Assembly: GCF_000308055.1 (NCBI RefSeq)
Contig: NZ_CAGY01000005.1
Span: 124,001 to 188,000, forward strand
Reading direction: 5' to 3'
From: Actinomyces sp. ph3
Lineage (GTDB): Bacteria > Actinomycetota > Actinomycetes > Actinomycetales > Actinomycetaceae
Length of the DNA: 64,000 nt
Notes under the pieces: model-generated
What the model saw: only the letters and a program-made list of their open reading frames with translations
The model's database searches: none
Told to the model about the DNA's origin: nothing
In this document: positions 16,479-50,700 of the stretch, piece by piece
How the letters are laid out: each line of letters begins with the position of its first letter
Numbering within the stretch: position 1 is the stretch's first letter
Program-made: the position numbers and the translations under genes

Positions 16479-16486
16479 TTCTTCCT

Positions 16487-16858: not shown

Positions 16859-16880
16859 GATTTGAGTTTAGAGCAGTTGC

Positions 16881-25646: not shown

Positions 25647-26624
25647 TTAGAAATAATACGGGAAAGACGACCAATCTGGCGAGCGGTGTTCAATGAATGC
25701 GTCGCGACCTTCCTGGGCCTCATCTGTCATGTATGCCATGCGCGTTGCCTCCCCAGCGAAAACCTGTTGGCCAGCCAAGCCGTCATCGGCCAAGTTGAAA
25801 GCAAATTTCAGCATGCGGATAGCCTGCGGAGACTTCGTTGCAATGATCCGGGCCCACTCCAGCGCGGTTTCCTCCAGCTGAGCATGGGGAACGACTTCGT
25901 TAATGACGCCCCAGCGCTCCGCAGTATCGGCGTCATAGCGCCTGGCAAGGAAGAAAATCTCACGTGCACGCTTATCGCCCGCTTGGCGCGCGAGCAGCGC
26001 AGAGCCATAACCGGCATCAAAAGAACCAACATTCGCATCGGTCTGCATGAACGCGGCATGCTCACGAGAAGCAATCGAGAGATCGCACACAACATTCAAG
26101 CTGTGGCCGCCGCCAGCCGCCCAACCGGGAACCGCTGCAATAACGACCTTCGGCATGGTGCGGATCAGGCGCTGAACCTCCAAAATATGAAGGCGTCCCG
26201 CGCGTGCGGGGTCGATTTGCTCACGTCGCTGTTCCACTCCCGCCGAGGCCTCGCTGCCCTCAAGTTCGTAGTGGTAGCCATCTTTTCCTCGGATCCTCTG
26301 GTCGCCACCCGAACAGAAGGAATAGCCGCCATCGCGAGGGGAAGGCCCGTTTCCCGTCAAAATAACCGCAGCGACATCGCTAGTCATTCGCGCGTGGTCC
26401 AGGCAGCGGTAGAGCTCATCAACGGTATGCGGACGGAACGCATTGCGAATTTCTGGACGATCAAAAGCAATACGGACCACGGGCAAGTCCGCGCCCTTCT
26501 CAGCTCCGTCGATGGGGCCTCGGGAAATCCCGCGGTGGTAGGTCATATCGGTCAGTTCGAAACCCTCAACCTCACGCCAGCGCGAAGGATCAAAAGTATC
26601 GGAAACGAAATTCAGTGCGCTCAT
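25647..26624 (-). CDS. menB: 1,4-dihydroxy-2-naphthoyl-CoA synthase
   Basis: MenB is a crotonase-fold enzyme that closes the second naphthoquinone ring from o-succinylbenzoyl-CoA. Motifs are RIAFDRPEIRNAFRPHTVDE, the oxyanion-hole region FCSGGDQRIRG, and PGWAAGGGHSLNVVCDLSIA; the C-terminus SPDWSSFPYYF is typical of MenB. The frame extends to 26705, but the ATG at 26624 (MSALNFVSDTFD) gives the normal N-terminus and 325 residues. It stands alone on the minus strand, separated from menE by unrelated genes and from menC by the glycan cassette. Confidence 0.95.
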   Translation of the reverse strand: MSALNFVSDTFDPSRWREVEGFELTDMTYHRGISRGPIDGAEKGADLPVVRIAFDRPEIRNAFRPHTVDELYRCLDHARMTSDVAAVILTGNGPSPRDGGYSFCSGGDQRIRGKDGYHYELEGSEASAGVEQRREQIDPARAGRLHILEVQRLIRTMPKVVIAAVPGWAAGGGHSLNVVCDLSIASREHAAFMQTDANVGSFDAGYGSALLARQAGDKRAREIFFLARRYDADTAERWGVINEVVPHAQLEETALEWARIIATKSPQAIRMLKFAFNLADDGLAGQQVFAGEATRMAYMTDEAQEGRDAFIEHRSPDWSSFPYYF

Positions 26625-26717
26625 AGTCCCAACAATAGCGGCCGATGACCACTTGTTGCCCAGAGGGCTAGGATAGGGATGTTCATACAGTTGATGACTA
26701 AGCAAAGGAGCTCATCG

Positions 26718-28082
26718 ATGTCCTCCTCTCTGTCCACGATTCCCGGACTTCTTCCTCTTCCGGTCTTCATTGAAGAGGCCGATGCACATCCCGAAGAAGC
26801 CACTTGGGCAGAAATTAGCCCCTCTGTTGTACTGAAGACTCCTGAGGAATTTTCGGCGGCAATTGCGCCCTTGGTAATCCCCGAGGAATGGCAGTTCGCA
26901 GAGGCCTACATCTTGACTATTTCCGCTGGAAGCGCGCAGGTGACCGCGGCGACGGAATTGGGGCTTTCTCGAGGCCTGCGTCGCCTCAATACATTGGCCA
27001 TCGCGAACCATAGTCGGGCTCCCATTGCAGTGAAGATCATCGACTATCCCGCTTATAGGCACCGCGGCTTGCATATCGATGTTGCTCGCCATTTCTTCGC
27101 CGTTCCCACAATCCTTCGCGTCATGGATGCGATGAGCGAAGTGGGTTTGAATATCCTGCACCTGCACCTGAGTGATGATCAGGGATGGCGCATTGAAATC
27201 CCGCAATTCCCTGAACTCATTGAACGCTCATCCGATTGCGCAGTCGGCGGGGAAGAAGGGGGCTACTACACTCTTGATGACTATCAGACCCTGGTCGAGG
27301 GAGCGCGCTCGCGGATGATTGCAATCATCCCCGAAATTGATATCCCCGGACACGTCAATGCCGCACTCCACGCGATTGAAGGACTCAACCCCGATGGGGT
27401 CTGTCCGCCCCTTTACGAAGGAACTGAAGTCGGTTTCTCGACTCTCTCAACCAAGGCGCCTGCAACCCAGGCCTTCCTCGAGGCCATTGTCGAGACCCTT
27501 GCTCCCTTCTCTCCGGCCGGTATCCACATTGGTGGCGATGAATCCTTCTCAACAGCCGAAGGTGATTACCCCGCGATTGTTGGAAGCCAAATTGAGCGTA
27601 TTCATGCCCGTGGGACGCGCGCTGTGGCGTGGGAAGAAGCTGCAGATCTGCTTGGGGATGGCGATCTTGTTCAGGTCTGGCATGACGATCTTGAAGGAGA
27701 CTCGATCGCTCGTGCCGTCGGACGCGGAGTGAAAGCGATCATGTCGCCCGGTCCGAAGGCCTACTTCGATATGAAGGAATACCCAGAACAAAAGCTCGGC
27801 ATCACCTGGGCCGGAATCCTTCCTTTGAAGAAAGCCTGGGATTGGGATCCCGAGAGCATCTGTGAGGGCGTGGACCGTAAGGGGATTGAAGGCGTCGAGG
27901 CCTGCCTGTGGAGTGAAACCTTGCGCCGAGAGAAGGACGTGTGGGAGATGTTGCTTCCGCGCCTAGCGGGTCTTGCAGAAGTTGCCTGGGCGGGAGGCCC
28001 TCGCGGAAGCTGGGAAGACTTCCAAGAACGTTTGGCGGGCCTCGAAGGCCTGTGGCGAGGCCGAGGCTGGTACGTCAAATAA
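26718..28082 (+). CDS. Cytoplasmic GH20 beta-N-acetylhexosaminidase
   Basis: GH20 enzymes release terminal beta-linked GlcNAc or GalNAc by substrate-assisted catalysis. The catalytic Asp-Glu pair is in GIHIGGDESF near residue 274, and the family motifs RHRGLHIDVARHFFAV and LHLSDDQGWRIEIPQFPEL are intact. AAAGGAG seven bases before ATG 26718 fixes the start (454 aa). There is no signal peptide, so the enzyme should act on imported oligosaccharides. That fits its place beside the galacto-N-biose/lacto-N-biose cassette, for example on GlcNAc-beta-1,3-Gal units. Exo-hexosaminidase versus lacto-N-biosidase activity cannot be told from sequence alone; the cytosolic location favours the former. Confidence 0.9.
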   Translation: MSSSLSTIPGLLPLPVFIEEADAHPEEATWAEISPSVVLKTPEEFSAAIAPLVIPEEWQFAEAYILTISAGSAQVTAATELGLSRGLRRLNTLAIANHSRAPIAVKIIDYPAYRHRGLHIDVARHFFAVPTILRVMDAMSEVGLNILHLHLSDDQGWRIEIPQFPELIERSSDCAVGGEEGGYYTLDDYQTLVEGARSRMIAIIPEIDIPGHVNAALHAIEGLNPDGVCPPLYEGTEVGFSTLSTKAPATQAFLEAIVETLAPFSPAGIHIGGDESFSTAEGDYPAIVGSQIERIHARGTRAVAWEEAADLLGDGDLVQVWHDDLEGDSIARAVGRGVKAIMSPGPKAYFDMKEYPEQKLGITWAGILPLKKAWDWDPESICEGVDRKGIEGVEACLWSETLRREKDVWEMLLPRLAGLAEVAWAGGPRGSWEDFQERLAGLEGLWRGRGWYVK

Positions 28083-28100
28083 GTTGAGCGCGAATGAAAA

Positions 28101-28128
28101 GCCCTCCCTCGCGGAAGCGGGGGAGGGC
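28101..28128 (+). terminator. Terminator between GH20 and aldolase genes (possibly bidirectional)
   Basis: GCCCTCCCTCGC and GCGGGGGAGGGC form a stem around GGAA, preceded by AAAA and followed by T-poor sequence. Just downstream GCTACCT (28134) and AGGTAGC (28160) make a second, looser inverted repeat that may serve the convergent aldolase operon. Confidence 0.75.
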
Positions 28129-28185
28129 TGCGTGCTACCTCATCGCATCAAAACAAACTAGGTAGCGAATTGCCTTCGTTGAGCA

Positions 28186-29022
28186 TTAAGCCTGGGCGTA
28201 GAGGCGCATCAGGCGTTCAACTTCTTCCTGGACCAAATGAGTTGCAGGGCCGACATACTTTCGCGGATCAACGATCTTCGGGTTTTCGTCAAGAATCTGA
28301 CGAACGCCCTGGGTGAAGACGACATTCAAGTGCGTCGAAACGTTGATCTTGGTCATTCCGGCTTGAATTGCCGCGACCATGCCCTCGTCGGGAACGCCGG
28401 AAGAACCGTGCAAAACCAGCGGAACAGGGACGAGTTCATGGATTGCAGCAATCAGCTGATTGTCCAAAACCGCCTCGCGAGTTGCCATCGCGTGAGAAGA
28501 ACCCACAGCAACAGCAAGCAGATCAACGCCAGTATCTGCGACAAACTTGGCCGCATCTTCAGGATTGGTGCGTGCTGAGGGGTCGTGGACACCGTTCTTT
28601 CCACCAACTTCACCCAGTTCGGCCTCGACGCTGACACCGTGCTCATGAGCGAAAGCGGTGATCTCAGCGGTAGTCTCACGGTTCTGCGCATCTGGAAGCT
28701 TTGAACCGTCGTACATGATCGAGGTAAAACCGAGCTCGACAGCCTCACGGCACAAATCGGTGGATTCAGCGTGATCAAGGTGAACAGAAACGGGAACGGT
28801 GGAGGCCTCGGCAAGCTCGATAAGTGCGCGTCCCAGGGGACGCAGACGGCCACCGTGATACTTCACAGCGTTTTGGGACAGCTGAAGGACCAAGGGCAAA
28901 CCGGTGTTTTCGGCGGCATCAACGAATGCTTCGGCGTGATCAAGAAGGACCACGTTAAAAGCCGCAAGACCAACCTTGCGGGCGGCGCAATCGCGTGCAA
29001 GCACAGCGGTGTCAGCAAGCAT
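28186..29022 (-). CDS. Class II aldolase, tagatose-bisphosphate type (KbaY/GatY-like)
   Basis: The 278-residue zinc aldolase has VSVHLDHAES, VSVEAELGEVGGKNGVHDPS and PLVLHGSSGVPDE, the class II metal and substrate motifs. Its short length and sequence type match the KbaY/GatY/AgaY group, which cleaves tagatose-1,6-bisphosphate, rather than glycolytic FbaA. It is the last gene of the operon SIS isomerase - ROK kinase - PfkB kinase - aldolase. That order corresponds to the lower N-acetylgalactosamine pathway. Fructose-bisphosphate as substrate cannot be excluded. Confidence 0.85.
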   Translation of the reverse strand: MLADTAVLARDCAARKVGLAAFNVVLLDHAEAFVDAAENTGLPLVLQLSQNAVKYHGGRLRPLGRALIELAEASTVPVSVHLDHAESTDLCREAVELGFTSIMYDGSKLPDAQNRETTAEITAFAHEHGVSVEAELGEVGGKNGVHDPSARTNPEDAAKFVADTGVDLLAVAVGSSHAMATREAVLDNQLIAAIHELVPVPLVLHGSSGVPDEGMVAAIQAGMTKINVSTHLNVVFTQGVRQILDENPKIVDPRKYVGPATHLVQEEVERLMRLYAQA

Positions 29023-29044
29023 AGCGACCTACTTTCTTGACAAA

Positions 29045-29971
29045 TTAGGACAGGCGAACAGGAGAAATACGGGAAAGAAGCTCCTCGCGGAGGGGAAGGT
29101 CAATTTCCCCAGCGACGGGCATGGTCACCGCGGCCGCAGAGGTTGCGACGGCCTCGGCAATGGCAGTAGGAATCTCTGACTCAAGGTCATCCCCAGCCTG
29201 AGCAAGCGAGCGAGCAAGGGATGCAACGCAGGCATCGCCGGCACCGGTGGGATTGCCCTGAAGGACAACTCCGGCCTCGGCGTGCCAATGGCTTTCGCGA
29301 GAAAAGAGGTCCATTCCCTCTTCACCTCGCGATACGCACACCCAGCTCGGTCCCTGCTCGATAAGGGCACGTGCGCCCTCTTCGATGGAGGACGCACCCG
29401 TAGCGTCGAGAAGCTCCAAGTGATTGGGCTTGAGGACATCGGCCCACGCTGCGCACTCAACCAAGGATGGCCCTGAGGTATCCAGAATGATTCGGCAACC
29501 GATCTGACGGACACGGCGCAACACCGGCTCGAGAACCTCAAAAGTGCTACTTCCGGGAAGAGAACCCGAAACGACCAAGAGGTCATCCGCATTCAGGCGG
29601 CTTCCCAAAAGATCAGCCATCTGCTTCCAGGAATCAGGATCTAGAGCATGACCGGACTCGTTGTATACCGTGGCGGTGTCGTCAATCATGGCAATTGAGC
29701 GTCGCGTTTGGAAGGGAACCTCAACCCACTCTGGCGTCACCAGAGAAGTCATTTCCTTCATCAGCGAGGCGATCACACTGCCGGTTGCACCCCCCAAGAA
29801 CCCTGTTGCATGGCTGGGGACTCCGAGCTGGTCCAAGACGCGAGAGACATTCAGTCCCTTTCCTCCCGGACGCTGGGAATACTCCGTGATGCGGTGAACC
29901 TGACCGCGGGTTTGGTCAGGAGCCTGCCACGTAATATCCAGAGCCGGATTGGGAGTGAAGGTCCAGATCAT
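29045..29971 (-). CDS. PfkB-family hexose-phosphate kinase (LacC/FruK-like)
   Basis: This 308-residue kinase has GGKGLNVSRVLDQLG near residues 36-50 and the catalytic anion-hole motif NPTGAGDACVASLARSL near the C-terminus. It belongs to the branch containing 1-phosphofructokinase and tagatose-6-phosphate kinase. The neighbouring tagatose-type aldolase and AgaS-like isomerase favour tagatose-6-phosphate as substrate (inference). Its start overlaps the ROK gene stop by four bases, and the aldolase follows 22 bases later. Confidence 0.87.
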   Translation of the reverse strand: MIWTFTPNPALDITWQAPDQTRGQVHRITEYSQRPGGKGLNVSRVLDQLGVPSHATGFLGGATGSVIASLMKEMTSLVTPEWVEVPFQTRRSIAMIDDTATVYNESGHALDPDSWKQMADLLGSRLNADDLLVVSGSLPGSSTFEVLEPVLRRVRQIGCRIILDTSGPSLVECAAWADVLKPNHLELLDATGASSIEEGARALIEQGPSWVCVSRGEEGMDLFSRESHWHAEAGVVLQGNPTGAGDACVASLARSLAQAGDDLESEIPTAIAEAVATSAAAVTMPVAGEIDLPLREELLSRISPVRLS

Positions 29972-30888
29972 GATTCAACCTCGATTCCATGGCTCTGGAA
30001 TGCCAAAGCTGCGGCACCCAGTGCCTGAGACGAGGAACCTAAAGCAGCGGAGAGCAGTGCAGGCGCGGGCATGACCGTGCAGCCTGATTCCAAGCCTTTA
30101 CGCAGGGGATCGTAAACCAGTGAGCCACCTTTACAGAGGCCACCTCCCAGAACGACGGGAAGCGAACCAACCTGGTGGCACACCGTTGCGAGAATCCCGC
30201 CCAGTAGACTCATCGAGGTCTCAAGGATCTCGCGTGCCTTTCGAGCGTTCTCGCTGGATGAAAGGGCAAGTTCCTCAACTTCGCGGGCGCCGGATCCTTC
30301 GGGGACGATCCCGGCCTCGATTGCCCGGCGTGCAATACCGCTGGCCGAGGCAACCTGCTCCACCGGAACAACCTCATAGGGGCGATCGGGGTGTGGAACG
30401 GGGACCTGCCCGATCTCACCAGCCCACGGCGGTGCCGGGGCGAGGCGCGAATTGATCACAACACCCGAGGCGATCCCGGTCCCTACTGCCACATACAGGC
30501 AGGAGGGACGGCGAACGCCCCACAGGGCCTCGGCAAGAGCGCCCGAACGGACATCGTGTCCCAGGGGGACGAAGGAACCCAGGGCTTCGGAAAGCTTTTC
30601 GCTTAGAGGAGCGTCTTTCCAGCCCAAATTGGCAGAAAAAATACCAATTCCATGTTCTTCATCAATAATTCCAGGAACGCACACACCGACGGGCGCATCG
30701 ACCGAAGCCTCACGTAGAGTTCGGGCCAGACGCACGACCGCAGAAACGACATCATCAGCGCCGGTCTGGGGGGTGGCGACGGCCTCGGAAGAGGTAATCA
30801 CAGTGCCGCGGGTGTCAGCGAGCACCCCCTTGATGGTGGTGCCGCCGACATCGATCCCGATAGCGAGCTTCTGGTCCGAGTTGCTCAC
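29968..30888 (-). CDS. ROK-family sugar kinase lacking the usual zinc motif
   Basis: The 306-residue protein has the ATP-binding start LAIGIDVGGTTIKGVLAD, the catalytic region LGHDVRSGALAEALWG and VAVGTGIASGVVIN. It has no helix-turn-helix, so it is a kinase rather than a repressor. Most ROK kinases continue with GELGHxxx and a CxCGxxGCxE zinc site. Here the sequence reads GEIGQVPVPHPDRPYE and has no cysteine cluster, so the zinc site is absent. In context a role as N-acetylgalactosamine (or other N-acetylhexosamine) 6-kinase is plausible but unproven; glucokinase is the alternative. It overlaps both neighbours by four bases. Confidence 0.85.
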   Translation of the reverse strand: MSNSDQKLAIGIDVGGTTIKGVLADTRGTVITSSEAVATPQTGADDVVSAVVRLARTLREASVDAPVGVCVPGIIDEEHGIGIFSANLGWKDAPLSEKLSEALGSFVPLGHDVRSGALAEALWGVRRPSCLYVAVGTGIASGVVINSRLAPAPPWAGEIGQVPVPHPDRPYEVVPVEQVASASGIARRAIEAGIVPEGSGAREVEELALSSSENARKAREILETSMSLLGGILATVCHQVGSLPVVLGGGLCKGGSLVYDPLRKGLESGCTVMPAPALLSAALGSSSQALGAAALAFQSHGIEVES

Positions 30889-31757
30889 TTGAGGATCACC
30901 GAGCGGGTCAGGTGGCGCGGGGTGTCAGGGTTGAGACCGCGAGCCTCAGCGCGAGCAACGGCCAGGCGCTGTGCAACAACGAGGTGAGCCATGGGGTCAC
31001 CGTTGAAAGTCACCAATTCGGCGCCAGTTGCGGCAACCTGATCGGCCATGCCCTCGGGAACCGGGCCGAAAACCCAGGTCAGGCGGCCGGGCTGAGCGAT
31101 AGAGATCGGGCCGTGGCGGTATTCCATTGCAGGGTAGACCTCAGTCCATGACTGAGATGCTTCACGCAGCTTCAGGCCCGCTTCGTTGGCCAGACCAATG
31201 GTCCATGCGGTGCCCAGGAAAGTGATCTGGTCTGCATCAACCCAACGCTGGGGGATTTCGAGCTCGAGGGCGCGCTGTGCGTCATCCGCGGCTGCAGCGA
31301 TATCGTCGCCCAAGCTGTGACGGAAGTATGCAAGAGCAGTGGTTGCAAAACGGGTCTGGACAACGGATTCTTCATCGGCGAAGTCCAGAACAACCTCAAC
31401 ATCTGCGTAGGGGGTTGCGGGACCATTGCCCACAGCGGTGATCAAGACGTTGGGGATGCCGCGATCCTTCAGACCGTGCAGGATGTCAATAATTTCAGTT
31501 GTCGTGCCCGAACGGGAAAGGCACACGACGCGGTCGTAGTGGCGATCCCAGGGGAATTCGGTGGCGGTGAAGGCATCAGAGAGACCCTTGCCCTGGCGCT
31601 CGCGGGCAACGGTGTATGCCTGCGCGATAAACCATGATGTTCCACACCCGATGACGGCAATTGCCTCACCATCTTTGGGAAGTGCATCAGTGGGAACGTC
31701 AAGAACTCGACGCCACAGCTCAGGTTGGCTGTTAATTTCTTCAGAAGTAAGGGACAT
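30885..31757 (-). CDS. AgaS-like SIS-domain sugar-phosphate isomerase/deaminase
   Basis: Two SIS domains are visible: GEAIAVIGCGTSWFIAQAY with VCLSRSGTTTEIIDILHGL, and ITFLGTAWTIGLANEAGLKL with YPAMEYRHGPISIAQPGR. The arrangement resembles GlmS isomerase domains and AgaS, which converts galactosamine-6-phosphate to tagatose-6-phosphate with release of ammonia. The frame is open to 32141, but GGAGA lies just before ATG 31757 and the longer version would cross the divergent promoter, so the 290-residue form is chosen. It is the first gene of the minus-strand operon and is divergent from the GH112 gene. Confidence 0.85.
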   Translation of the reverse strand: MSLTSEEINSQPELWRRVLDVPTDALPKDGEAIAVIGCGTSWFIAQAYTVARERQGKGLSDAFTATEFPWDRHYDRVVCLSRSGTTTEIIDILHGLKDRGIPNVLITAVGNGPATPYADVEVVLDFADEESVVQTRFATTALAYFRHSLGDDIAAAADDAQRALELEIPQRWVDADQITFLGTAWTIGLANEAGLKLREASQSWTEVYPAMEYRHGPISIAQPGRLTWVFGPVPEGMADQVAATGAELVTFNGDPMAHLVVAQRLAVARAEARGLNPDTPRHLTRSVILK

Positions 31758-31801
31758 CGGTGTCTCCATTGTTATCGGGAATGCATCACCACCTCGGTGT
31801 G

Positions 31802-31820
31802 CTTGTACTATCGTACCAAG
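31802..31820. promoter_or_regulatory. Candidate operator in the SIS/GH112 divergent promoter region
   Basis: The sequence CTTGTACTATCGTACCAAG contains GTAC-N4-GTAC and imperfect CTTG/CAAG arms, placed between two divergent operons of the same pathway. Such dyads are typical GntR- or LacI-type binding sites. No cognate regulator gene is visible next to it. Confidence 0.4.
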
Positions 31821-31907
31821 AAGGAAATAACTTAGGACTAGCTGGATAAGTGCCCGAAGTTGTCTACCTCTTTGCAATGACGCTGAAATCAACACATCGG
31901 AGTGACA

Positions 31908-34202
31908 ATGACTGACAAATCGACCAAGCCAGGTCGTCTCACCCTTCCCATTGAGCGTGGAATCGATGCCGAAGTGCGCGCTCTTGTTGAACGCCTTGGT
32001 GCGGACGCAGTGCGAAATTCCGATGGAACAGAACTTCCTGAATGGGTCGACCGAGCATTTGCCAAGGTCTACTCCACGTATTTCCCTGCGCGTGGCGATG
32101 AAGAGTGGGCCGATCAGAGCGAGGGCGAGCGCATCCACCAATACCTTTCGTCAAACCCTCATACCGCCCCAGAAAGCGGGCCTTTGAGTATCAATGTCAT
32201 GGAGGGATGGTTCCAAGCGCAATTCCGTCCTGATACCCAATGCGATACTTCCCGCTGGTGGCAGGTGATTGATCGGACCAGCGGGAAGGCTCTGGATCCC
32301 TCGGAGTGGAGCGTTCAAGAGGTTGAACCCTCACCCGTCGTTGATCCCGTGCCGATCGTTGGAGAGCTGCCTCCCACCGCGTCGAGCGCGGTGGTGACAA
32401 TTCACGAGCCCATTCCCTTCCACGTGTACACCGTGAACTTCTTTGCTGTGCAGATGTGGGATTCCACCCAGATGTACAACTATCTGACGAACGACTGGGC
32501 GCTTGAGGAAGGCCGCGTGAAGGAGCGCCCCTTCGATGTGGCATTCCCACGGACCTGGGAGCACGTCAAGGATGCCTTAGCCGCATGGCTGAAGGCGAAT
32601 CCTCAAGTGGACGTGGTTCGTTTCACGACCTTCTTCTACCACTTCACCTTGGCCTTTGATTCCCGAGGCCGCGAACGATACGTCGATTGGTTTGGCTATT
32701 CGGCCTCGGTGTCGATCCCGGCGATGGAAGAGTTTGAAAAGGAATACGGCTATGCGCTGACTCCCGAGGACTTTGTGGATGGCGGCTGGTACAACTGCCC
32801 CTTCCGCACGCCAACACGTGTGTTCCGGGATTGGATTGACTTCACCTCCAAGCGAGTTGCCGAAAAGGCAGGGGAATTGGTTCGCAAGGTCCACGAGGAG
32901 GGTCGCGAGGCCATGATGTTCCTTGGCGATAACTGGATCGGTATGGAACCCTACGGGCCCTACTTCCCTTCGATCAAGATGGATGCGGTTGTTGGATCCG
33001 TCGGTTCGGCCGCAACCTGTCGAATGATCTCCGATATTCCCGGTGTGCGCTACACCGAGGGGCGCTTCCTTCCCTACTTCTTCCCCGATGTCTTCCGCGA
33101 GGGCGGAGATCCCCTGGGAGAAGCGAACGAGTCGTGGCGCACCGCTCGGCGCGCAATTGTCCGTAGTCCCTTGGATCGCATGGGCTATGGCGGTTACCTT
33201 TCCTTGGCGCTCAAGTTCCCCGAGTTCATTGACCGCGTGGAGGAAATCCTTGCAGAATTCCGTTCCCTTCACGAGGCCACGGGCGGGGAAAAGCCCGCGT
33301 GTGCACCAGTACGCGTTGCCGTTTTGAATGCATGGGGAAAGCTGCGCACGTGGCAGACCCATATGGTTGCCCATGCCCTGTGGTACAAGCAGATTCATAC
33401 CTACTTGGGGGTTATCGAAGCCCTTGCAGGACTTCCTTTTGACGTGCGTTTCATGTCTTTCGATGAGGTCATCAATGGGGGAGATTCCTCTTTGGAGGAT
33501 GTCGACGTGGTCATCAATGCCGGCGCCGCGAATACTGCCTTCTCCGGCGGGGAAGTTTGGGAGGATCTACGACTGCAAGACACTCTGCGTCGCTTTGTTG
33601 CCCGCGGTGGCGGTTTCATTGGGATTGGCCAGCCCACGGCCTCGTTGGGAACTCAAGGACAAGTGGATAGAGGCGGCATCTGCCGCGGAAGCGTTTTTGC
33701 ACTTGCGGACGTCTTGGGTGTGGATCAAGAAATCTCGTGGTCCCTGTCCAAAGATCGCTATGACGAGGTTGTGCCAGAGCATTTCATTACTGCTGACCTT
33801 GATGGAGACTATGTTTTCGGTGAAGACCCCGGAGATGTCGTAGTTACGGATCCTGACACTTCTGTGCTTGTCATGGAGCGGGGGAGTGTACGCGCTTCTG
33901 CGCATGATTTTTGCTCGGGTAGGGGCGTTTACCTTGCTGGACTGACCTGGTCGACTGCCAATAGCCGGCTTTTGCACCGCGCGATTATGTGGGCGGCGCA
34001 CCGAGAAGATCAATGGGATTGTGTCCTTGCGTCATCCAATCCTGATGTTGAGGTCGCTTGGTATCCCAAGTCGCAACTTGCCTTTATTTACAATGATTCT
34101 GATGCTCCATCTTCGAGTGTCATCACTGGTTTTGGACTGGAACGTGCCGTGGATCTAGCTCCCGGAGAAGGGCGTTGGACCCAGTGGAAGAAGGAAGATT
34201 AA
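31908..34202 (+). CDS. GH112 1,3-beta-galactosyl-N-acetylhexosamine phosphorylase
   Basis: This cytosolic enzyme phosphorolyses galacto-N-biose (Gal-beta-1,3-GalNAc) or lacto-N-biose (Gal-beta-1,3-GlcNAc) to galactose-1-phosphate and the N-acetylhexosamine. Family features include GRLTLPIERGIDAE, VNFFAVQMWDSTQMYNYLTN, FTTFFYHFTLAFDSRGRERY and EDFVDGGWYNCPFRTPTRVF; an aspartate in this last region is the likely general acid. The 764 residues compare with about 750 in the bifidobacterial enzyme, and no signal peptide is present. CGGAG precedes ATG 31908. It heads the plus-strand importer and beta-galactosidase genes and is divergent from the Aga-type operon. The preference between galacto-N-biose and lacto-N-biose cannot be read from the sequence. 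Confidence 0.95.
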   Translation: MTDKSTKPGRLTLPIERGIDAEVRALVERLGADAVRNSDGTELPEWVDRAFAKVYSTYFPARGDEEWADQSEGERIHQYLSSNPHTAPESGPLSINVMEGWFQAQFRPDTQCDTSRWWQVIDRTSGKALDPSEWSVQEVEPSPVVDPVPIVGELPPTASSAVVTIHEPIPFHVYTVNFFAVQMWDSTQMYNYLTNDWALEEGRVKERPFDVAFPRTWEHVKDALAAWLKANPQVDVVRFTTFFYHFTLAFDSRGRERYVDWFGYSASVSIPAMEEFEKEYGYALTPEDFVDGGWYNCPFRTPTRVFRDWIDFTSKRVAEKAGELVRKVHEEGREAMMFLGDNWIGMEPYGPYFPSIKMDAVVGSVGSAATCRMISDIPGVRYTEGRFLPYFFPDVFREGGDPLGEANESWRTARRAIVRSPLDRMGYGGYLSLALKFPEFIDRVEEILAEFRSLHEATGGEKPACAPVRVAVLNAWGKLRTWQTHMVAHALWYKQIHTYLGVIEALAGLPFDVRFMSFDEVINGGDSSLEDVDVVINAGAANTAFSGGEVWEDLRLQDTLRRFVARGGGFIGIGQPTASLGTQGQVDRGGICRGSVFALADVLGVDQEISWSLSKDRYDEVVPEHFITADLDGDYVFGEDPGDVVVTDPDTSVLVMERGSVRASAHDFCSGRGVYLAGLTWSTANSRLLHRAIMWAAHREDQWDCVLASSNPDVEVAWYPKSQLAFIYNDSDAPSSSVITGFGLERAVDLAPGEGRWTQWKKED

Positions 34203-34236
34203 GGCTAGTTATCAAATCGTGACCAAATAGTTGCAT

Positions 34237-34277
34237 TCTCACAGGCCAAAATGTCATCAGACATCTTCTCTGTGAGA
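34237..34277 (+). promoter_or_regulatory. Two-tier inverted repeat between GH112 and the binding-protein gene
   Basis: TCTCACAG pairs with CTGTGAGA, and inside it ATGTC pairs with GACAT around ATCA, giving a 41-base dyad with small internal loops. There is no U-tract. It may be an RNA element in the leader of the importer genes or a DNA operator. Confidence 0.5.
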
Positions 34278-34353
34278 TAGCATAAAAGAGCAATAAATAA
34301 AGCTGGCAAAAGGTGTCAACTTTGTAAACGTCCCACAACGGAGAGGGAATAAC

Positions 34354-35682
34354 ATGCACATGTCACGCCGCTCCATGAGCGTTGTTGCGCTCATGTCAGT
34401 TGCTGCGATGGGTCTGACTGCGTGCTCGGGTTCGGGCGCGAAGACTGACAGCACCGCAAGCTCTTCGGCATCTGCCGATAAGGGCGCAACCATCACATAC
34501 CTGCACCGTCTGCCCGACGGTGAGGGAATGACCAAGATCTCGACTCTCGCTGAGCAGTGGAACAAGGAGCACCCTGATACTCAGGTTCAGGCGGTCAAGT
34601 TCGATGGCAAGGCCAACGAAATGATCAAGAAGCTCGAGACCGACGTCAAGGCCGGTTCCGGACCTTGCTTGGCGCAGCTGGGCTATGCAGAAATCCCCGA
34701 GATGTTCACCAAGGGCCTGCTGGAAGACGTTACCCAGTACGCGACCCAGTACAAGGCCAACTACTCCGCTGGCGCCTTCTCGCAGGTTGGCGTGGGTGGA
34801 AAGTACTACGGCCTGCCCCAGGACACCGGCCCGCTTGTTTACTACTACAACAAGGCTGAGTTCGAGAAGCTGGGAATCAAGGTTCCCACCAACCTCGAAG
34901 AGTTCAAGGCCGCTGCCAAGACCGCAGCAGCTCAGGGCAAGTACATCTCTGCTTTCCAGGCTGACGAGTCGCGCTACAGCCTGTCCGCTCAGGCAGCTGC
35001 AGCAGGCGGTGTTTGGTACAAGGCTGAAAACGATAAGTGGACCGTCAAGATCGACGATGCGTCCGCCAAGACCGTGGCAGACTTCTGGCAGTCGATGCTC
35101 GATGACAAGACCACTCTCGTCGCCGAGCGCTGGGGAGATTCCTTCACTAAGGCTCTGACCGACAAGACCCTGATCGGCACCATCGGTGCCGCATGGGAAG
35201 CACCGCTCATCTCCGGTGATCTGGAGAAGACCGACAACAAGGGCGAATGGGCAGTTGCTCAGCTCCCTGACTTCGGCAAGGGCGCGCTGACCGGCCCCGA
35301 CGGCGGTTCCGGCGTTGCAGTCATGAAGGGCTGCTCGAACCCCAAGGGCGCCATGGAGTTCAACAACTGGCTGAACACCCAGGTTGACGCTCTGGTCTCC
35401 CAGGGCCTGGTCGTTGCAACCACGACCGGCACCATGAAGACCCCGGATTCGGTCAAGGAATTCTACGGTGGACAGGATGTCTTCGCTGAGCTCTCCAAGG
35501 CGAATGCAAACCTGGCCCCCGACTTCCCCTACATCCCCTTCTTCTCGACCCTCGGCGATCCCATGGCCAAGGCTGCAACCGCAGCTGGTGATGGCTCCGG
35601 CAAGGTGATCGACATCTTCAAGGCTGCTCAGGCGCAGTCCGTGAAGGCGCTCAAGGACGGAAACCTTCCCGTCGCTGAGTAA
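34354..35682 (+). CDS. ABC sugar transporter substrate-binding lipoprotein
   Basis: The N-terminus is a lipoprotein signal with lipobox LTAC (cysteine near residue 24), followed by a Ser/Ala linker and a family 1 extracellular solute-binding fold (GPLVYYYNKAEFEKLGIKVP, DGGSGVAVMKGCSNPKGAME). It captures oligosaccharides outside the membrane for the two permeases encoded next. Its place in the cassette suggests galacto-N-biose/lacto-N-biose or related host glycans, like the bifidobacterial GL-binding protein. GGAGAGGG precedes the ATG, and codon use is more biased than in neighbours, consistent with high expression. No ATPase gene accompanies it. Confidence 0.93.
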   Translation: MHMSRRSMSVVALMSVAAMGLTACSGSGAKTDSTASSSASADKGATITYLHRLPDGEGMTKISTLAEQWNKEHPDTQVQAVKFDGKANEMIKKLETDVKAGSGPCLAQLGYAEIPEMFTKGLLEDVTQYATQYKANYSAGAFSQVGVGGKYYGLPQDTGPLVYYYNKAEFEKLGIKVPTNLEEFKAAAKTAAAQGKYISAFQADESRYSLSAQAAAAGGVWYKAENDKWTVKIDDASAKTVADFWQSMLDDKTTLVAERWGDSFTKALTDKTLIGTIGAAWEAPLISGDLEKTDNKGEWAVAQLPDFGKGALTGPDGGSGVAVMKGCSNPKGAMEFNNWLNTQVDALVSQGLVVATTTGTMKTPDSVKEFYGGQDVFAELSKANANLAPDFPYIPFFSTLGDPMAKAATAAGDGSGKVIDIFKAAQAQSVKALKDGNLPVAE

Positions 35683-35697
35683 TCGCTAATCGCGGAG

Positions 35698-35731
35698 GGG
35701 GTGTGGTTTCTCCGCTGAGGAACCACACCCC
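35698..35731 (+). terminator. Stem-loop between binding-protein and permease genes
   Basis: GGGGTGTGGTT pairs perfectly with AACCACACCCC around a 12-base loop, without a strong T-run. This position usually holds a partial terminator or mRNA-stabilising hairpin that keeps binding-protein levels above permease levels. Confidence 0.75.
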
Positions 35732-35780
35732 TACCGTGTTTAAAGTCCACAATCTGCCAGCAATCGAGGGTGATTGATAC

Positions 35781-36713
35781 ATGCAGTCAGACATTCAAAA
35801 CCGGCGTATCAGAGAACGGCACGATGCGCGTACGGGCTGGGCATTTATGGCCCCATTCTTCATTATGTTCCTCTTGGTTTTTGCCGTTCCGATTTGTGTG
35901 GCAATCTACCAGTCCTTCTTCCGTCAGGTCGCAAGTGGCGGAGGCCTGTACGGCGGCGGCGAACTTAAAAATCAATTCGTCGGCCTCGAAAACTTCACCA
36001 TGGTGATCACGTCCGGACAATTCTGGTCCGGCATGGGGCGAGTCGTTGTTTACGCGGCCTTTCAGATCCCGATCATGATCATCTCGGCTCTTGTTCTGGC
36101 TCTTGTTTTGGACTCATTCCTGGTTCGTCGAGTTGGTTTGTTCCGACTGAGCTACTTCCTGCCATTTGCAATCCCCGGCATTGTTGCCGCAATGGTCTGG
36201 CTCTACATCTACACCCCTGAGCTTTCACCGATCGTTAAGTTTTTTGATTCCCTTGGAATCCACATTGACTTCATGGCCCCAGGCGCCCCAATCCTTGCCT
36301 CGATGGCAAATATGACGACGTGGACCTACACCGGTTACAACATGCTGATCTTCCTGGCAGCGCTGCAAGCAGTGCCCCATGAGCTGTACGAGGCCGCACG
36401 TCTCGACGGCGCTTCCTCGTGGCAGATTGTGCGCCAAATTAAGATCCCCATGGTCTCCGGAGCTGCCCTCCTGGCAGTCTTGCTCTCCATCATCGGCACA
36501 ATTCAGCTCTTCAATGAACCCGCAGTTATGCAGTCTGCAAATGGGTGGATGGGCAATGCCTACACGCCGATGATGATGGCCTACAACACCATGTTCGGAA
36601 CTATCTCGCCCGGTGGTGATGGCCCGGCCTCGGCAATCTCAATCGTCATGGCACTGGTTGCTGGCGGACTTGCCGTGATCTACGCGCTCTTGCAAAGGAA
36701 GACTCTGCGATGA
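35781..36713 (+). CDS. ABC sugar transporter permease (first)
   Basis: This is a 310-residue MalF-type inner-membrane permease with about six transmembrane helices starting at residue 22. The EAA loop that contacts the ATPase is EAARLDGASSWQIVRQIKIP. It follows the binding-protein gene after a hairpin and overlaps the second permease gene by four bases (ATGA). Together they form the channel for the glycan cassette. The substrate is inferred from context only. Confidence 0.93.
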   Translation: MQSDIQNRRIRERHDARTGWAFMAPFFIMFLLVFAVPICVAIYQSFFRQVASGGGLYGGGELKNQFVGLENFTMVITSGQFWSGMGRVVVYAAFQIPIMIISALVLALVLDSFLVRRVGLFRLSYFLPFAIPGIVAAMVWLYIYTPELSPIVKFFDSLGIHIDFMAPGAPILASMANMTTWTYTGYNMLIFLAALQAVPHELYEAARLDGASSWQIVRQIKIPMVSGAALLAVLLSIIGTIQLFNEPAVMQSANGWMGNAYTPMMMAYNTMFGTISPGGDGPASAISIVMALVAGGLAVIYALLQRKTLR

Positions 36714-37618
36714 CAACTCCCACTCGCACACTGCCTGACGGACGCGAATACCGCGTTTCGATTGAAGGAATGCCCCCGCGCACCCTTGCTCCCAAGAAAC
36801 TTGCTCGGATCGTCACCATCGTTGCGTTGACGATCACCATGGTTTACTTCATCCTGCCCATCATCTGGGTGATGTTCTCGGCAACGAAGTCGAACGCAGA
36901 TCTCGTTTCTACTAATGGCTTCTGGTTTGGTCACTTTGAGCTGGCGGAAAACTACACGAAGCTCATGGGATGGACCCAAGGTCTGTTCTGGCGCTGGGTG
37001 CTCAACTCCCTCTTCTACTCAACGACCGCTGGCGTGATTGGAACCCTGATCTCGGTTGCCGCAGGATACGCGATGGCAAAGTTTGTTTTCCCGGGACGTA
37101 ATGTCTCGATGGCTTTGATTATGGCCGGACTGCTGATGCCCGTCGCTCTGTTGACAATCCCGCTTTACGTTGTCTTCCATAACCTTGGGTTGACAGACAC
37201 TGTGTGGGCAATCCTGATCCCCAGTTGCGTGTCTCCCTTCGGTGTCTTCCTCGGCCGTGTCTACGCAGATTCTTCTGTCCCGACTGAGCTCATCGAGGCA
37301 GCTCGAATCGATGGGGCTTCTGAAGCACGAGTCTTCTTTACGATCGTTCTTCGACTTCTTGCCCCCGCAATGGTCACGATCTTCCTTTTCATCTTCGTGG
37401 CAACGTGGAATAACTTCCTGCTTCCCTTGATGATGGTCTCCACCCCTGAACTCAAGCCTGTCACTTTGGGCTTGTACGGCATGATGAGCTACTTCGCTCC
37501 GCAAAAGGGCGCAGTCATGCTGGGTGCCCTCTTGGGTGTTCTGCCGCTCATCGTGCTATTCCTTGGCTTGCAGAAGTACTGGCAATCAGGTCTGGCTGCC
37601 GGTTCTGTGAAGGGATAG
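36710..37618 (+). CDS. ABC sugar transporter permease (second)
   Basis: This MalG-type permease of 302 residues has six hydrophobic helices, with the EAA loop EAARIDGASEARVFFTIVLR. It is translationally coupled to the first permease by an ATGA overlap. GH42 beta-galactosidase follows 46 bases later on the same strand, so uptake and hydrolysis appear to be cotranscribed. Confidence 0.93.
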   Translation: MTTPTRTLPDGREYRVSIEGMPPRTLAPKKLARIVTIVALTITMVYFILPIIWVMFSATKSNADLVSTNGFWFGHFELAENYTKLMGWTQGLFWRWVLNSLFYSTTAGVIGTLISVAAGYAMAKFVFPGRNVSMALIMAGLLMPVALLTIPLYVVFHNLGLTDTVWAILIPSCVSPFGVFLGRVYADSSVPTELIEAARIDGASEARVFFTIVLRLLAPAMVTIFLFIFVATWNNFLLPLMMVSTPELKPVTLGLYGMMSYFAPQKGAVMLGALLGVLPLIVLFLGLQKYWQSGLAAGSVKG

Positions 37619-37664
37619 TCAGCCCGCTGCTGAGTCACCTCGAGGTGCTGGGAAGGATAGGGAA

Positions 37665-39821
37665 ATGGACACGATTGCCTACGGCGGCGATTGGAACCCC
37701 GAACAGTGGGATGAGGAAACCAATCGACGTGATATCGAACGCATGGTCCGTGCCGGAGTCAATCTGATCTCCCTTGGGATCTTTTCCTGGGCATCTCTTG
37801 AACCCGAAGAAGGCCACTACGATCTGGAGTGGTTGGCGGATCTCATTGATCAGCTCCACAGTGCGGGAATTAGTGTGGACCTGGCCAATGGGACCGCTTC
37901 CCCTCCGGCGTGGATGGCTCAGCGCTACCCCCAAACCCTTCCCGTTGATTCTCGAGGCGTGCGGCTGGGATTTGGTTCGCGCCAGCAATACAACCCCTCA
38001 AGCGAGCTTTTTTGTCGCAAAGCCTGTGAGTTAACCGAGGCCATGGCGCGACGTTTTGGCGACCATCCCGGCGTCGTCATGTGGCACATTTCGAACGAAT
38101 ACGCCTGTCACACGGCGGAGAGCTTCGATGATGAGTCCGCTGCGGCATTTCGACGCTGGCTCGTGGAGAAATACGGGGATATTCAGGCGATCAATCAGGC
38201 CTGGGGAACTGCATTTTGGTCCCAAACCTATAGGGATATCCAAGAAATTCAGCCTCCCCGTGCAATGCCCACCTTCTACAACCCCGGGCAAATGCTGGAT
38301 TGGCGTCGCTTTAGTGACTATGCCCTGCGTTCCCAGATGGAACGCGAACGAGAGGTGATTCGTCGCTATTCTGACCGGCCAATCACGACGAATTTCATGG
38401 GGACCTTCCCGCTTCTCGATTACCGCAAGTGGGCACCCCTGTGTGACATCATCGCCGACGATTCCTACCCGGACCCCGCAGATCCTCAGGCTGCACACGA
38501 GATCGCATGGCAGGGTGACGTCATGCGTGGTCTCGGCAATGGTGCTCCCTGGCTGCTGATGGAGCAGAGCCCCGGTGCGGTGCAGTGGCGTCCTCAAAAT
38601 TCTCCCAAGCGCCCGGGACACTTCCTTTTGTGGACTATCGCAAGACTTGCTCACGGCGCGGATGGAATCCTCCAATTCCAGTGGCGGCAATCCGCCAGGG
38701 GATCGGAAACCTTCCATGCCGGGATGGTGCCCCACTCTGGCGAAGACTCACCGATCTGGACAGATGTTGTGAGCACCGGTCAAGCTCTAAAATCTTTGGC
38801 TCCTATTACGGGGACTCGCATGAGCTCGCGTGCTGCAGTTGTCATTGACTGGGAGAGCGAGTGGGCGCGCCACTATGCGATCGGTCCGATTAGCTCTGAA
38901 AATCCCACAGATTCGTGGGGGAACTTCGCTCCCGCTAAGTCCTGGCATCAGAGCCTGTGGGAAGCGGGAATCGCAACTGATGTTGTGGGCGTCGACAATG
39001 ACTTCAGCTCTTACGATCTCATCATTCTTCCCGCACTCTTCATTGACTACCCGCAGATGACTCAGGCCCTGCGTCAGGCAGCTGAACGCGGAGCACATAT
39101 TGTCATTACCGCACCCAGTGGTGTTGTTGATTCCCAACTTGGGGCCGTCTTAGGCGGATATCTTGGCTCTCTTTCCGATCTTGCGGGAGTGCGGGTTCTG
39201 GAACATTCAACTCTCACCGGTCCCGGTCAGGGACGTGTTTATGATGCGCGCGAGAAGGCCGCGAACCGGATTTCTTCTGCAGTAAGTACCCCGGCGGCCT
39301 GTGATTGGTGCGGGATCGATACCGATAACGAGGCCCTCAAACGAACCATGGACCTTCTTGGGGGAGCGGCGAAGGACCTGCGCAGTGGTCGCTGGGCCGA
39401 AAAGATTGCCCCCGCTGCCGGTTTGCAGTGGCAGATTCCCGGGGACTCCTTGGAGGGTGGGCCTGAGTGCCTTGCATACTTTGATGGCCGAGGCGGTGGC
39501 CTTGACCTTGCCGGGCTTCCAGCGCTCACCCGCAGAAAAGTTGGCCGCGGAAGTGTCTGGTACGCAGGAGCGGACTTTGACGCGCTGACTCGCTCGGTTC
39601 TGCTGCGCTTGTGGACGACCTACACGCGAATTCGCCCCGTGTGCCCAGACCTTCCCGAAGGCGTCGAAGCTCAAGAACGTGAAGGCTTCCTCTTCATTCT
39701 CAACCACTCTGATCGTGCGGTTGAACTCGCTGGGATTGTGGGCCAAGATCTTCTCAGCGGAGCTGAGTGTACGGGACACGTTCTTCTTGCCCCGCGATCA
39801 GCAATGGTTATTGAACGATAG
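37665..39821 (+). CDS. GH42 beta-galactosidase
   Basis: The 718-residue cytosolic glycosidase begins AYGGDWNPEQWDEETNRRDI, the usual GH42 N-terminus. The acid/base is in MWHISNEYACHTAESF (Asn-Glu near residues 142-144), and the nucleophile is in WLLMEQSPGAVQWRPQNSPK near residue 299. A trimerisation domain and a C-terminal beta domain follow. In glycan cassettes GH42 removes galactose from Gal-beta-1,3/1,4/1,6 oligosaccharides after import, complementary to GH112. The TAG stop overlaps the AGGAG that serves menC. Confidence 0.95.
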   Translation: MDTIAYGGDWNPEQWDEETNRRDIERMVRAGVNLISLGIFSWASLEPEEGHYDLEWLADLIDQLHSAGISVDLANGTASPPAWMAQRYPQTLPVDSRGVRLGFGSRQQYNPSSELFCRKACELTEAMARRFGDHPGVVMWHISNEYACHTAESFDDESAAAFRRWLVEKYGDIQAINQAWGTAFWSQTYRDIQEIQPPRAMPTFYNPGQMLDWRRFSDYALRSQMEREREVIRRYSDRPITTNFMGTFPLLDYRKWAPLCDIIADDSYPDPADPQAAHEIAWQGDVMRGLGNGAPWLLMEQSPGAVQWRPQNSPKRPGHFLLWTIARLAHGADGILQFQWRQSARGSETFHAGMVPHSGEDSPIWTDVVSTGQALKSLAPITGTRMSSRAAVVIDWESEWARHYAIGPISSENPTDSWGNFAPAKSWHQSLWEAGIATDVVGVDNDFSSYDLIILPALFIDYPQMTQALRQAAERGAHIVITAPSGVVDSQLGAVLGGYLGSLSDLAGVRVLEHSTLTGPGQGRVYDAREKAANRISSAVSTPAACDWCGIDTDNEALKRTMDLLGGAAKDLRSGRWAEKIAPAAGLQWQIPGDSLEGGPECLAYFDGRGGGLDLAGLPALTRRKVGRGSVWYAGADFDALTRSVLLRLWTTYTRIRPVCPDLPEGVEAQEREGFLFILNHSDRAVELAGIVGQDLLSGAECTGHVLLAPRSAMVIER

Positions 39822-39831
39822 GAGAAGGCCC

Positions 39832-40893
39832 GTGGGGGATATCGGCAGCGCGTCTTCAGCTGTTCGCCTCCACGAACTTTCTGTGGATTCGCTTCCCGCC
39901 AAGACTCGAATGGTTGTAGAAGGAATCGATCGTCTGCTGGTCTACTCAATTCCGATGCGCCTGCGCTTTCGCAATATTGAGGTTCGCGAAGGTCTTCTTC
40001 TGCACGGTGAATACGGGTGGGGAGAATGCGCGCCTTTCTGGGATTATGACCCGCGTGAATCCTCTACCTGGCTTGCTAGTGCATTGGAGGCTGCCCGAGT
40101 AGCGCCACCCTGGCCTCGGCGCGAAAAAGTGCCGCTCAACGTGACAATTCCGGTGATTTCGGCCGAAGATGCGCGCAGGCGGGTATTCGATAATCCGGGC
40201 TGTGCGACTGCAAAAGTCAAGGTTGCCGATGCGCGTTCTGACCTTGAGCGTGATTGCCAGCGTGTTCAGGCCGTTGCTGAGGCTCTGGTTGAATTGCATG
40301 GTGCATCTGCGAAAGTGCGTGTTGATGCCAACGGCGCTTGGGACAGGGAAACTGCTCTGACTTGGATTGCTCGTCTGAATCGCGCCGCCCAAGCTGTAGG
40401 CGGTCTGGAGTACGTTGAACAGCCCTGCATGGCCGTTGAAGACCTTGCGTGGCTGCGGCGCAAACAAGATGTACCTCTCGCAGCCGATGAATCGATTCGT
40501 CGAGCGGAAGACCCACTCAAGGTGGCTCGCCTCGAGGCAGCTGACGTCGCCGTGATCAAAGTTGAACCTCTGGGAGGAGCGGGCGCCGTTCTCCAATTGG
40601 CAGAGGAGCTGCCCATGCCTTTGGTGATCTCTTCGGCCTTGGAAACCAGTTTTGGCTTGGATTATGCGGCTCGGGTGGCCTGCGCTTTAGATCAGGAACC
40701 ACGCGCATGCGGCCTGGGCACGGCCTCGCTATTGAGCGGCGATACCGCGGTCTCGCCTGTGCGCGTAGTTGATGGCAATATGATTCCCACCGATCTTGCT
40801 GTGAACGAAAGCCTGATCACGCCCTCAGCACCCGACTCTCGGCTCTGTGAATCCTGGGTGAACCGACTCAATGCGATGGCATCCCACCGTTAA
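39832..40893 (+). CDS. menC: o-succinylbenzoate synthase
   Basis: MenC, an enolase-superfamily enzyme, dehydrates SHCHC to o-succinylbenzoate in menaquinone synthesis. Signatures are CATAKVKVADA (catalytic lysines), VRVDANGAWDRETALTWI, LEYVEQPCM, PLAADESIRRAEDP and DVAVIKVEPLGG. The open frame begins at 39679 inside the GH42 gene, but AGGAG at 39820-39824 positions the GTG at 39832 as the start (353 aa). The start lies 10 bases after the beta-galactosidase stop and menD begins five bases after menC, so menCD appear to ride on the glycan operon transcript. Confidence 0.94.
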   Translation: MGDIGSASSAVRLHELSVDSLPAKTRMVVEGIDRLLVYSIPMRLRFRNIEVREGLLLHGEYGWGECAPFWDYDPRESSTWLASALEAARVAPPWPRREKVPLNVTIPVISAEDARRRVFDNPGCATAKVKVADARSDLERDCQRVQAVAEALVELHGASAKVRVDANGAWDRETALTWIARLNRAAQAVGGLEYVEQPCMAVEDLAWLRRKQDVPLAADESIRRAEDPLKVARLEAADVAVIKVEPLGGAGAVLQLAEELPMPLVISSALETSFGLDYAARVACALDQEPRACGLGTASLLSGDTAVSPVRVVDGNMIPTDLAVNESLITPSAPDSRLCESWVNRLNAMASHR

Positions 40894-40898
40894 AGATC

Positions 40899-46321: not shown

Positions 46322-46335
46322 GAATGGAGCTAAAA

Positions 46336-47517: not shown

Positions 47518-47533
47518 GACTCAGGTGAAAAGT

Positions 47534-47557
47534 GGGGGGTGGCTGTGGCCACCCCCC
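47534..47557 (+). terminator. Intrinsic terminator after the Gfo/Idh gene
   Basis: GGGGGGTGGC and GCCACCCCCC form a 10-bp stem around TGTG, shortly followed by TCTTTT. Confidence 0.88.
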
Positions 47558-47580
47558 CAATCTTTTAGGACACGATCAAT

Positions 47581-48741: not shown

Positions 48742-48770
48742 GGCTCTCTCTTCGTTGGGATGAGACCAAT

Positions 48771-48810
48771 TCAGCGTAGGCCCAGGAAGGAAATCCTGAG
48801 CCTACGCTGA
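48771..48810 (-). terminator. Long hairpin between surface protein and ROK repressor genes
   Basis: TCAGCGTAGGC pairs with GCCTACGCTGA, and inside CAGGA pairs with TCCTG around AGGAAA, with one mismatch between the two stems. It would end or attenuate the minus-strand transcript of the surface protein before the repressor gene, though no U-tract follows. Confidence 0.75.
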
Positions 48811-48857
48811 TAGGCGAGTCGAATAATTCTGAATACTCGACAGTTGCGACGCCTATC
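48809..48857 (-). other. Second inverted repeat overlapping the surface protein stop codon
   Basis: GATAGGC and GCCTATC are the outer arms; GTCGA and TCGAC pair further inside. It abuts the hairpin at 48771-48810, giving two tandem structures in one short 3' region. Confidence 0.5.
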
Positions 48858-50647: not shown

Positions 50648-50700
50648 ACTTTGTTCAAGGTGTTTAATTAGTGCCTGTCACAGCAATGGAGGTGTACTCA

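Follow-up and report, generated by a model that had tools for sequence, protein, structure and literature searches.

A ten-gene cassette at positions 26718-39821 of a 64,000-nucleotide stretch of DNA from Actinomyces sp. ph3 joins a GH112 phosphorylase and an ATP-binding cassette (ABC) importer to a divergent operon for a SIS-domain protein, a ROK kinase, a PfkB kinase and a class II aldolase. On comparative evidence, we consider it likely that phosphorolysis of galacto-N-biose feeds a tagatose-type route for N-acetylgalactosamine (GalNAc). This coupling had been proposed in a first-pass annotation of the sequence, and it is now strengthened by the conserved linkage of the two gene groups, by the mutual exclusion of the SIS gene and the kinase NahK, and by versions of the operon that carry a NagA homolog. 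The stretch, hereafter the window, is positions 124001-188000 of contig C6 in a genome of 1.86 Mb that is 99.8% complete (G000; G numbers denote family genomes and L numbers fetched loci).

The linkage was assessed in 213 genomes of the family Actinomycetaceae. GH112 was found above the cut-off in 86 of them, a count that omits six genomes with partial GH112 (G028, G033, G085, G127, G186 and G188), and an ortholog of the SIS protein (at least 64% identity) in 52, omitting G103 and G104, where identity was 46-47%. Both genes were present in 42 genomes, no more than 10 kb apart on one contig in 38 and no more than 1.5 kb apart in 29. NahK was detected (E 1e-20) in 20 family genomes, 19 of which also had GH112, and no genome combined GH112, SIS and NahK. 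This distribution suggests that the SIS operon and NahK provide alternative fates for one GH112 product.

Gene neighbours were counted by tblastn in stretches of up to about 20 kb, here and in the 80 SIS loci discussed below, and the counts are thus lower bounds. In 27 fetched loci with SIS and a full-length GH112, which represent 27 of the 41 such genomes other than G000 (the window is not counted), ROK was found in 25, the aldolase in 23, PfkB in 19 and a DeoR-family regulator in 23. All three operon partners were present in 17 and the divergent layout in 23, and Schaalia suimastitidis DSM 15538, another member of the family (L133), carries the same cassette genes. Homologs of GH42 and GH20 were seen in only four of the 27. 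Since the linkage recurs in 38 of 42 genomes and across these loci, the pairing of GH112 with SIS is a trait that the family has conserved; GH20 and GH42, being so rare beside it, are additions of the clade to which the window belongs.

Gene content and alternative modules beside GH112

The cassette comprises the following features:

26718..28082, plus strand: GH20 beta-N-acetylhexosaminidase-type protein (PF00728, 228.9 bits)
28186..29022, minus strand: class II aldolase, proposed tagatose-1,6-bisphosphate aldolase (PF01116, 280.6 bits; TIGR00167, 231.4 bits, above the cut-off of 215.6)
29045..29971, minus strand: PfkB kinase, proposed tagatose-6-phosphate kinase (PF00294, 127.2 bits)
29968..30888, minus strand: ROK kinase, proposed N-acetylgalactosamine 6-kinase (PF00480, 116.2 bits)
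30885..31757, minus strand: SIS-domain protein, proposed galactosamine-6-phosphate deaminase/isomerase, GlmD-like (PF01380, 40.7 bits against a cut-off of 25)
31758..31907, no strand: intergenic region from which the SIS operon and GH112 diverge (coordinates; alignment with four relatives)
31908..34202, plus strand: GH112 beta-1,3-galactosyl-N-acetylhexosamine phosphorylase (TIGR02336, 868 bits against a cut-off of 560; PF09508, PF17385 and PF17386)
34354..35682, plus strand: solute-binding lipoprotein of the ABC importer (PF01547, 88.5 bits)
35781..36713, plus strand: ABC importer permease 1 (PF00528, 58.6 bits)
36710..37618, plus strand: ABC importer permease 2 (PF00528, 70.4 bits)
37665..39821, plus strand: GH42 beta-galactosidase-type protein (PF02449, 458.5 bits; PF08532; PF08533, marginal at 22.6 bits against a cut-off of 21)

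Open reading frames were found at the coordinates of the first-pass annotation, and all ten proteins exceed the Pfam cut-offs for the families that it had named. The plus-strand genes run from GH112 through the solute-binding protein and both permeases to GH42; the minus-strand operon diverges from them in the order SIS, ROK, PfkB and aldolase, and GH20 converges on it. The GH112 start was placed at the ATG at 31908, although a GTG at 31902 is also possible. A crude hydropathy analysis indicated a signal-peptide-like start in the solute-binding protein and none in GH20, GH112 or GH42. Genes named from sequence and position, with no model, flank the cassette: menB (25647-26669) and menC/menD (39700-42641). 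Two inverted repeats lie within it, one with 26-nt arms between the solute-binding protein and permease genes (35687-35742) and one with 13-nt arms between the convergent GH20 and aldolase genes (28100-28129). The divergent region yielded only one short direct repeat and one palindrome of 9 nt, with no assignable operator, and a promoter scan returned 4 sites, compared with 4.1 expected.

Neither SIS nor NahK was detected in 25 of the 86 GH112 genomes. Beyond the importer, twelve of these 25 loci (L040 at 14502-18012, L188-L193, L195 and L197-L200) encode a GHMP kinase along with a nucleotidyltransferase and a phosphohexomutase, the kinase and importer of L200 being in pieces. The GHMP protein is galactokinase-like, at 93 bits against a cut-off of 227, and the mutase is GlmM-like, also below its cut-off. 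Four other loci (L062, L065, L072 and L202) kept ROK, aldolase and DeoR, with no SIS or PfkB seen in the stretch. The remaining nine showed no such module at the thresholds used; L094 has weaker kinase and nucleotidyltransferase homologs.

The clearest replacement was found in G151, a genome of the same genus as the window. Its GH112 is 72% identical to that of the window and nests with a support of 100 inside the window's six-row clade. Its fetched stretch (L035) carries homologs of GH42, both permeases, the binding protein and GH20 in another order. There is no SIS ortholog; instead, a single reading frame beside GH112 (L035 11199-13862) combines an APH-type (NahK-like) part with a GalT-type part, whose two GalT domains fell slightly under the Pfam cut-offs in one scan, the N-terminal one passing slightly in another. 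G151 is thus a natural module swap, with a NahK-GalT fusion in place of the SIS cassette, which is the pattern predicted if each module acts on the amino sugar that GH112 releases.

In a GH112 tree of 65 rows, built by a quick method and accompanied by a tool warning of long branches that meet, well-supported branches force at least nine changes of the SIS label, three of the NahK label and one of the GHMP label. The tree and a residue count of 66 rows drew on the longer fetched stretches, skipping 30 short loci, nine named duplicates and L087, and the tree also omits L201, where GH112 is 35% identical. Six of the 19 GH112+NahK genomes are represented in both. L071 and L092 come from one genome (G014), and L071 carries the label 'none' since the fetched stretch stops short of SIS.

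Family assignments and the amino sugar

GH112 aligns over nearly its full length with the Bifidobacterium longum enzyme of known structure. Asp313, Asn166, Arg210 and Arg32 (B. longum numbering) are invariant in all 66 rows, window included. Thr stands at position 162 in 24 of the 28 rows linked to SIS, again including the window, and Val in five of six NahK-linked rows, yet all 12 GHMP-linked rows have Thr as well. Thr in place of B. longum Val162 may go with a preference for galacto-N-biose. The B. longum enzyme, the closest one characterised, accepts both galacto-N-biose and lacto-N-biose according to PMC8950772. A galactosyl-rhamnose phosphorylase is not favoured, because TIGR02336 was passed and the solved relatives found were the B. 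longum enzyme and a mutant of it, in a comparison that included no galactosyl-rhamnose enzyme.

The SIS protein had been described as an AgaS-like isomerase, and this part of the first-pass annotation has to be abandoned. Its score with the AgaS model TIGR02815 is 28.7 bits against a cut-off of 529.2. The best NCBIfam model is GlmD (NF041128), with 79 bits, yet far from the 580 needed for membership. In a profile search of solved structures the leading match was 2cb0 (E 2.6e-28), deposited as a glucosamine-fructose-6-phosphate aminotransferase, and third was the glucosamine-6-phosphate deaminase 1j5x. Chains named tagatose-6-phosphate ketose/aldose isomerase, the AgaS type, were far behind at E 4e-11 or weaker. 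By sequence, the SIS protein is therefore closest to glucosamine-6-phosphate deaminases. Its residue 285 (gene 30885-31757) is Arg in 21 of 21 aligned SIS proteins and Lys in the three solved relatives printed, by alignment only.

For its partners, the right superfamilies were recovered and the tagatose-specific models were not reached. PfkB scored 214.9 bits with TIGR03168, just below the cut-off of 216.4, and 108 bits with the LacC model, against a cut-off of 410; the aldolase scores best with a fructose-bisphosphate aldolase model. The solved chains nearest to the ROK kinase are ROK glucokinases and N-acetylhexosamine kinases. A separate aldolase, 29% identical to that of the operon, is encoded at 21229-22254; the operon's own kinase and aldolase therefore suggest action on a ketose other than fructose.

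To what extent the operon exists apart from GH112 can be judged from the best 80 of 592 SIS relatives, nearly all actinobacterial by title, with 20 of the 80 stretches shorter than 20 kb. In these named loci the aldolase was near SIS in 69, DeoR in 67, PfkB in 50, ROK in 34, a NagA homolog in 32 and GH112 in 8. The NagA homolog lay on the SIS strand and no more than 4 kb downstream in 29, and that of a Longispora locus passes the nagA cut-off. From these neighbours, the SIS operon is best described as a putative amino-sugar operon in its own right, which often includes a deacetylase gene and which in Actinomycetaceae is joined to GH112.

Beta-GalNAc is the substrate of characterised GH123 enzymes, and in Pseudonocardia kunmingensis a GH123 gene (PF13320, 279 bits; L152 14681-16291) follows a SIS-ROK-NagA-PfkB-aldolase operon. 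GH101, which releases core 1 from mucin, occurs in 43 of the 213 family genomes, all 43 with GH112. Because of the NagA homologs in the operons, the GH123 gene in Pseudonocardia and this confinement of GH101, GalNAc is favoured as the predicted operon substrate. A weak GH123 homolog (27%) was also noted in SIS stretch L090.

Completion of the proposed pathway and competing explanations

From the observed gene content, linkage, conservation and NahK exclusion, and from the presence of nagA, galK and galE in the genome, we infer every substrate and reaction of the following scheme. GH20 and GH42, both presumably intracellular, would trim longer oligosaccharides. GH112 would use phosphate to convert the disaccharide to galactose-1-phosphate and GalNAc, and the ROK kinase would turn the latter into GalNAc-6-phosphate. 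NagA, encoded away from the cassette, would take off the acetyl group, and the SIS protein would convert galactosamine-6-phosphate to tagatose-6-phosphate and ammonia, which would leave PfkB and the class II aldolase to carry tagatose-6-phosphate to triose phosphates. Galactose-1-phosphate would enter through GalE and a probably UTP-dependent uridylyltransferase.

The first-pass annotation had noted that the deacetylase and the galactose-1-phosphate enzymes were missing from the window and proposed a genome search for nagA, galT and galE. None was indeed seen in the window, and elsewhere in the genome a NagA homolog, galK and galE were found and galT was not detected. The single NagA homolog of G000 (C10:293515-294672; E 3e-63, 213 bits against a cut-off of 226) lies near genes that read by eye as an ATP synthase operon. 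In E. coli, nagA can stand in for agaA, and strains that have lost agaS cannot use GalNAc, according to PMC3668189. GalE (C10:397118-398068) scored 339 bits, above its cut-off of 262. NahK gave no match in G000 at E 1e-20. The sole candidate found for the galactose-1-phosphate step is a GalU-like protein encoded at C6:299704-300528, at 267 bits against a cut-off of 327.

Several observations weigh against the proposed coupling. Of the 86 GH112 genomes, 25 have neither SIS nor NahK. SIS occurs without GH112 in 10 of its 52 family genomes (in one of them GH112 is split), and no GH112 match was seen in 72 of the 80 named SIS stretches. The closeness of the SIS protein to glucosamine-6-phosphate deaminases and the shortfall of PfkB and the aldolase with the tagatose-specific models point the same way. 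NagA was present in 197 of the 213 family genomes (E 1e-30) and in 40 of the 42 GH112+SIS genomes, all except G124 and G189; its presence is therefore needed but not discriminating. GalT, matched in 67 of the 213 genomes, gave no PF01087 match in G000, and no UDPGP-type pyrophosphorylase was matched there either. Among the 42 GH112+SIS genomes, GalT was found in 17, UDPGP in 18, both in none and neither in seven; these seven are G119, G124 and, from the clade of the window, all five members with SIS (G000, G152, G158, G163 and G175). In three loci of another genus (L064, L067 and L096) a UDPGP gene adjoins GH112. No GH101 match was found in G000, though its near relative G158 has one. No DeoR regulator resembling that of the relatives turned up in the window or in G000, the search of G000 having had no positive control.

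One other possibility, which we judge unlikely, is that the cassette handles mainly lacto-N-biose, with the SIS protein as a GlmD-type deaminase yielding fructose-6-phosphate and with PfkB and the aldolase as extra glycolytic enzymes. The nearest NCBIfam and structural relatives of the SIS protein (GlmD, and deaminase and aminotransferase chains) and the best-scoring model of the aldolase fit such a glucosamine route, and in bifidobacteria lacto-N-tetraose and lacto-N-triose are substrates of a GH42 enzyme and of N-acetylglucosaminidases according to PMC6109692. However, the operon kinase and aldolase would then be redundant with the aldolase at 21229-22254 and with a 6-phosphofructokinase recognised by eye (L183 15975-18308). 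The GH123 gene after the Pseudonocardia operon and the restriction of GH101 to GH112 genomes among the 213 also speak against it. It is considerably easier to envisage that N-acetylglucosamine leaves through NagA and NagB while the SIS operon serves GalNAc alone, a division of labor that has real merit even if we lean somewhat away from it. The use of both disaccharides by B. longum GH112 and the NagA homolog in G000 agree with it, whereas the Thr at position 162 of the window enzyme, which may favour galacto-N-biose, does not.

A merely accidental neighborhood, in which the SIS operon belongs to a second sugar locus at 46324-55613 and simply adjoins GH112, seems very improbable. This locus encodes a Gfo/Idh/MocA protein, a ROK-type repressor, a DUF4832 protein, an ABC importer and a GH36-like protein. 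Six fetched genomes of the same genus have SIS and lack GH112, and in four of them (L079, L080, L081 and L084, not L082 and L083) the SIS operon is flanked by homologs of this locus. Against chance, SIS lies no more than 10 kb from GH112 in 38 of 42 genomes of many genera, and never occurs together with NahK. Because of the four same-genus genomes, the operon may serve both loci, which is likelier than chance adjacency. The Gfo/Idh/MocA protein beside the SIS operon was also weighed as a possible GH109 enzyme, an NAD-dependent alpha-N-acetylgalactosaminidase; its nearest solved chains are named dehydrogenases or oxidoreductases. Alignment-free structure models of the DUF4832 and GH36-like proteins were poor, with a mean predicted local distance difference test score (pLDDT) of 44.8 and 32.5, respectively.

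Galacto-N-biose phosphorolysis feeding a tagatose-type GalNAc route thus remains our preferred reading. A broader view, on which we are close to evenly divided and which we offer tentatively, is that GH112 of Actinomycetaceae acts as a hub for three interchangeable amino-sugar modules: SIS-ROK-PfkB-aldolase; NahK, alone or with GalT; and GHMP kinase, nucleotidyltransferase and GlmM-like mutase. The first would hold an undescribed galactosamine-6-phosphate deaminase/isomerase family outside AgaS, with Arg for the GlmD-type Lys, and galactose-1-phosphate would be handled without GalT in the window's clade. The preferred reading, if true, would explain how members of the family could grow on core-1 sugars of mucin with no need of the NahK pathway of bifidobacteria, freeing the amino-sugar nitrogen as ammonia and sending the carbon straight to triose phosphates. 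Annotation relying on AgaS or NahK would miss this route, and the natural module swaps would be a clean case of non-orthologous replacement at one locus.

Comparison with known systems

The bifidobacterial pathway for lacto-N-biose and galacto-N-biose (gltABC, lnpA, nahK, lnpC and lnpD) resembles the cassette in combining an ABC importer with GH112, and its products are galactose-1-phosphate and N-acetylhexosamine according to PMC6109692. It differs in what follows: G000 has a GalE match and no NahK or GalT match, and the divergent SIS-ROK-PfkB-aldolase operon stands in their place. The gnb operon of Lactobacillus casei is a galacto-N-biose route in which GalNAc is processed by a GalNAc-6-phosphate deacetylase and an isomerizing deaminase for galactosamine-6-phosphate (PMC6109692), much like the route proposed here. 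In contrast to the ABC import and GH112 phosphorolysis of the cassette, it relies on import by a phosphotransferase system (PTS) and on the GH35 galactosidase GnbG.

The Aga pathway of E. coli and streptococci (AgaA, AgaS, AgaZ, AgaY and AgaR) would share its chemistry with the cassette after GalNAc-6-phosphate. The E. coli system has a DeoR-family regulator, according to PMC4694137, which also describes the streptococcal one, and this regulator is matched by the DeoR gene in relatives of the cassette. Import is again by a PTS in Aga, whereas the cassette has a SIS protein outside the AgaS family, a PfkB kinase and a deacetylase encoded outside the operon. A reconstruction from human gut genomes, Actinobacteria included, placed LnbABC-LnbP (an ABC importer and a phosphorylase) and agaS/agaA in GalNAc catabolism (PMC5583593). 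Its orthologs were defined by AgaS-domain matches (cd05010, e-value <e-70), a criterion that the SIS family of the window would probably fail, and no operon of this composition linked to GH112 was seen in the passages of PMC5583593 consulted.

The first-pass annotation had regarded the cassette as a possibly undescribed hybrid. In the open-access literature searched, no account was found of an Actinomycetaceae GH112 locus combined with such an operon; the arrangement is a family-wide variant and not peculiar to this genome. The cassette looks like known chemistry in a new combination, conserved in one family, and hence like a modest variation on a known theme.

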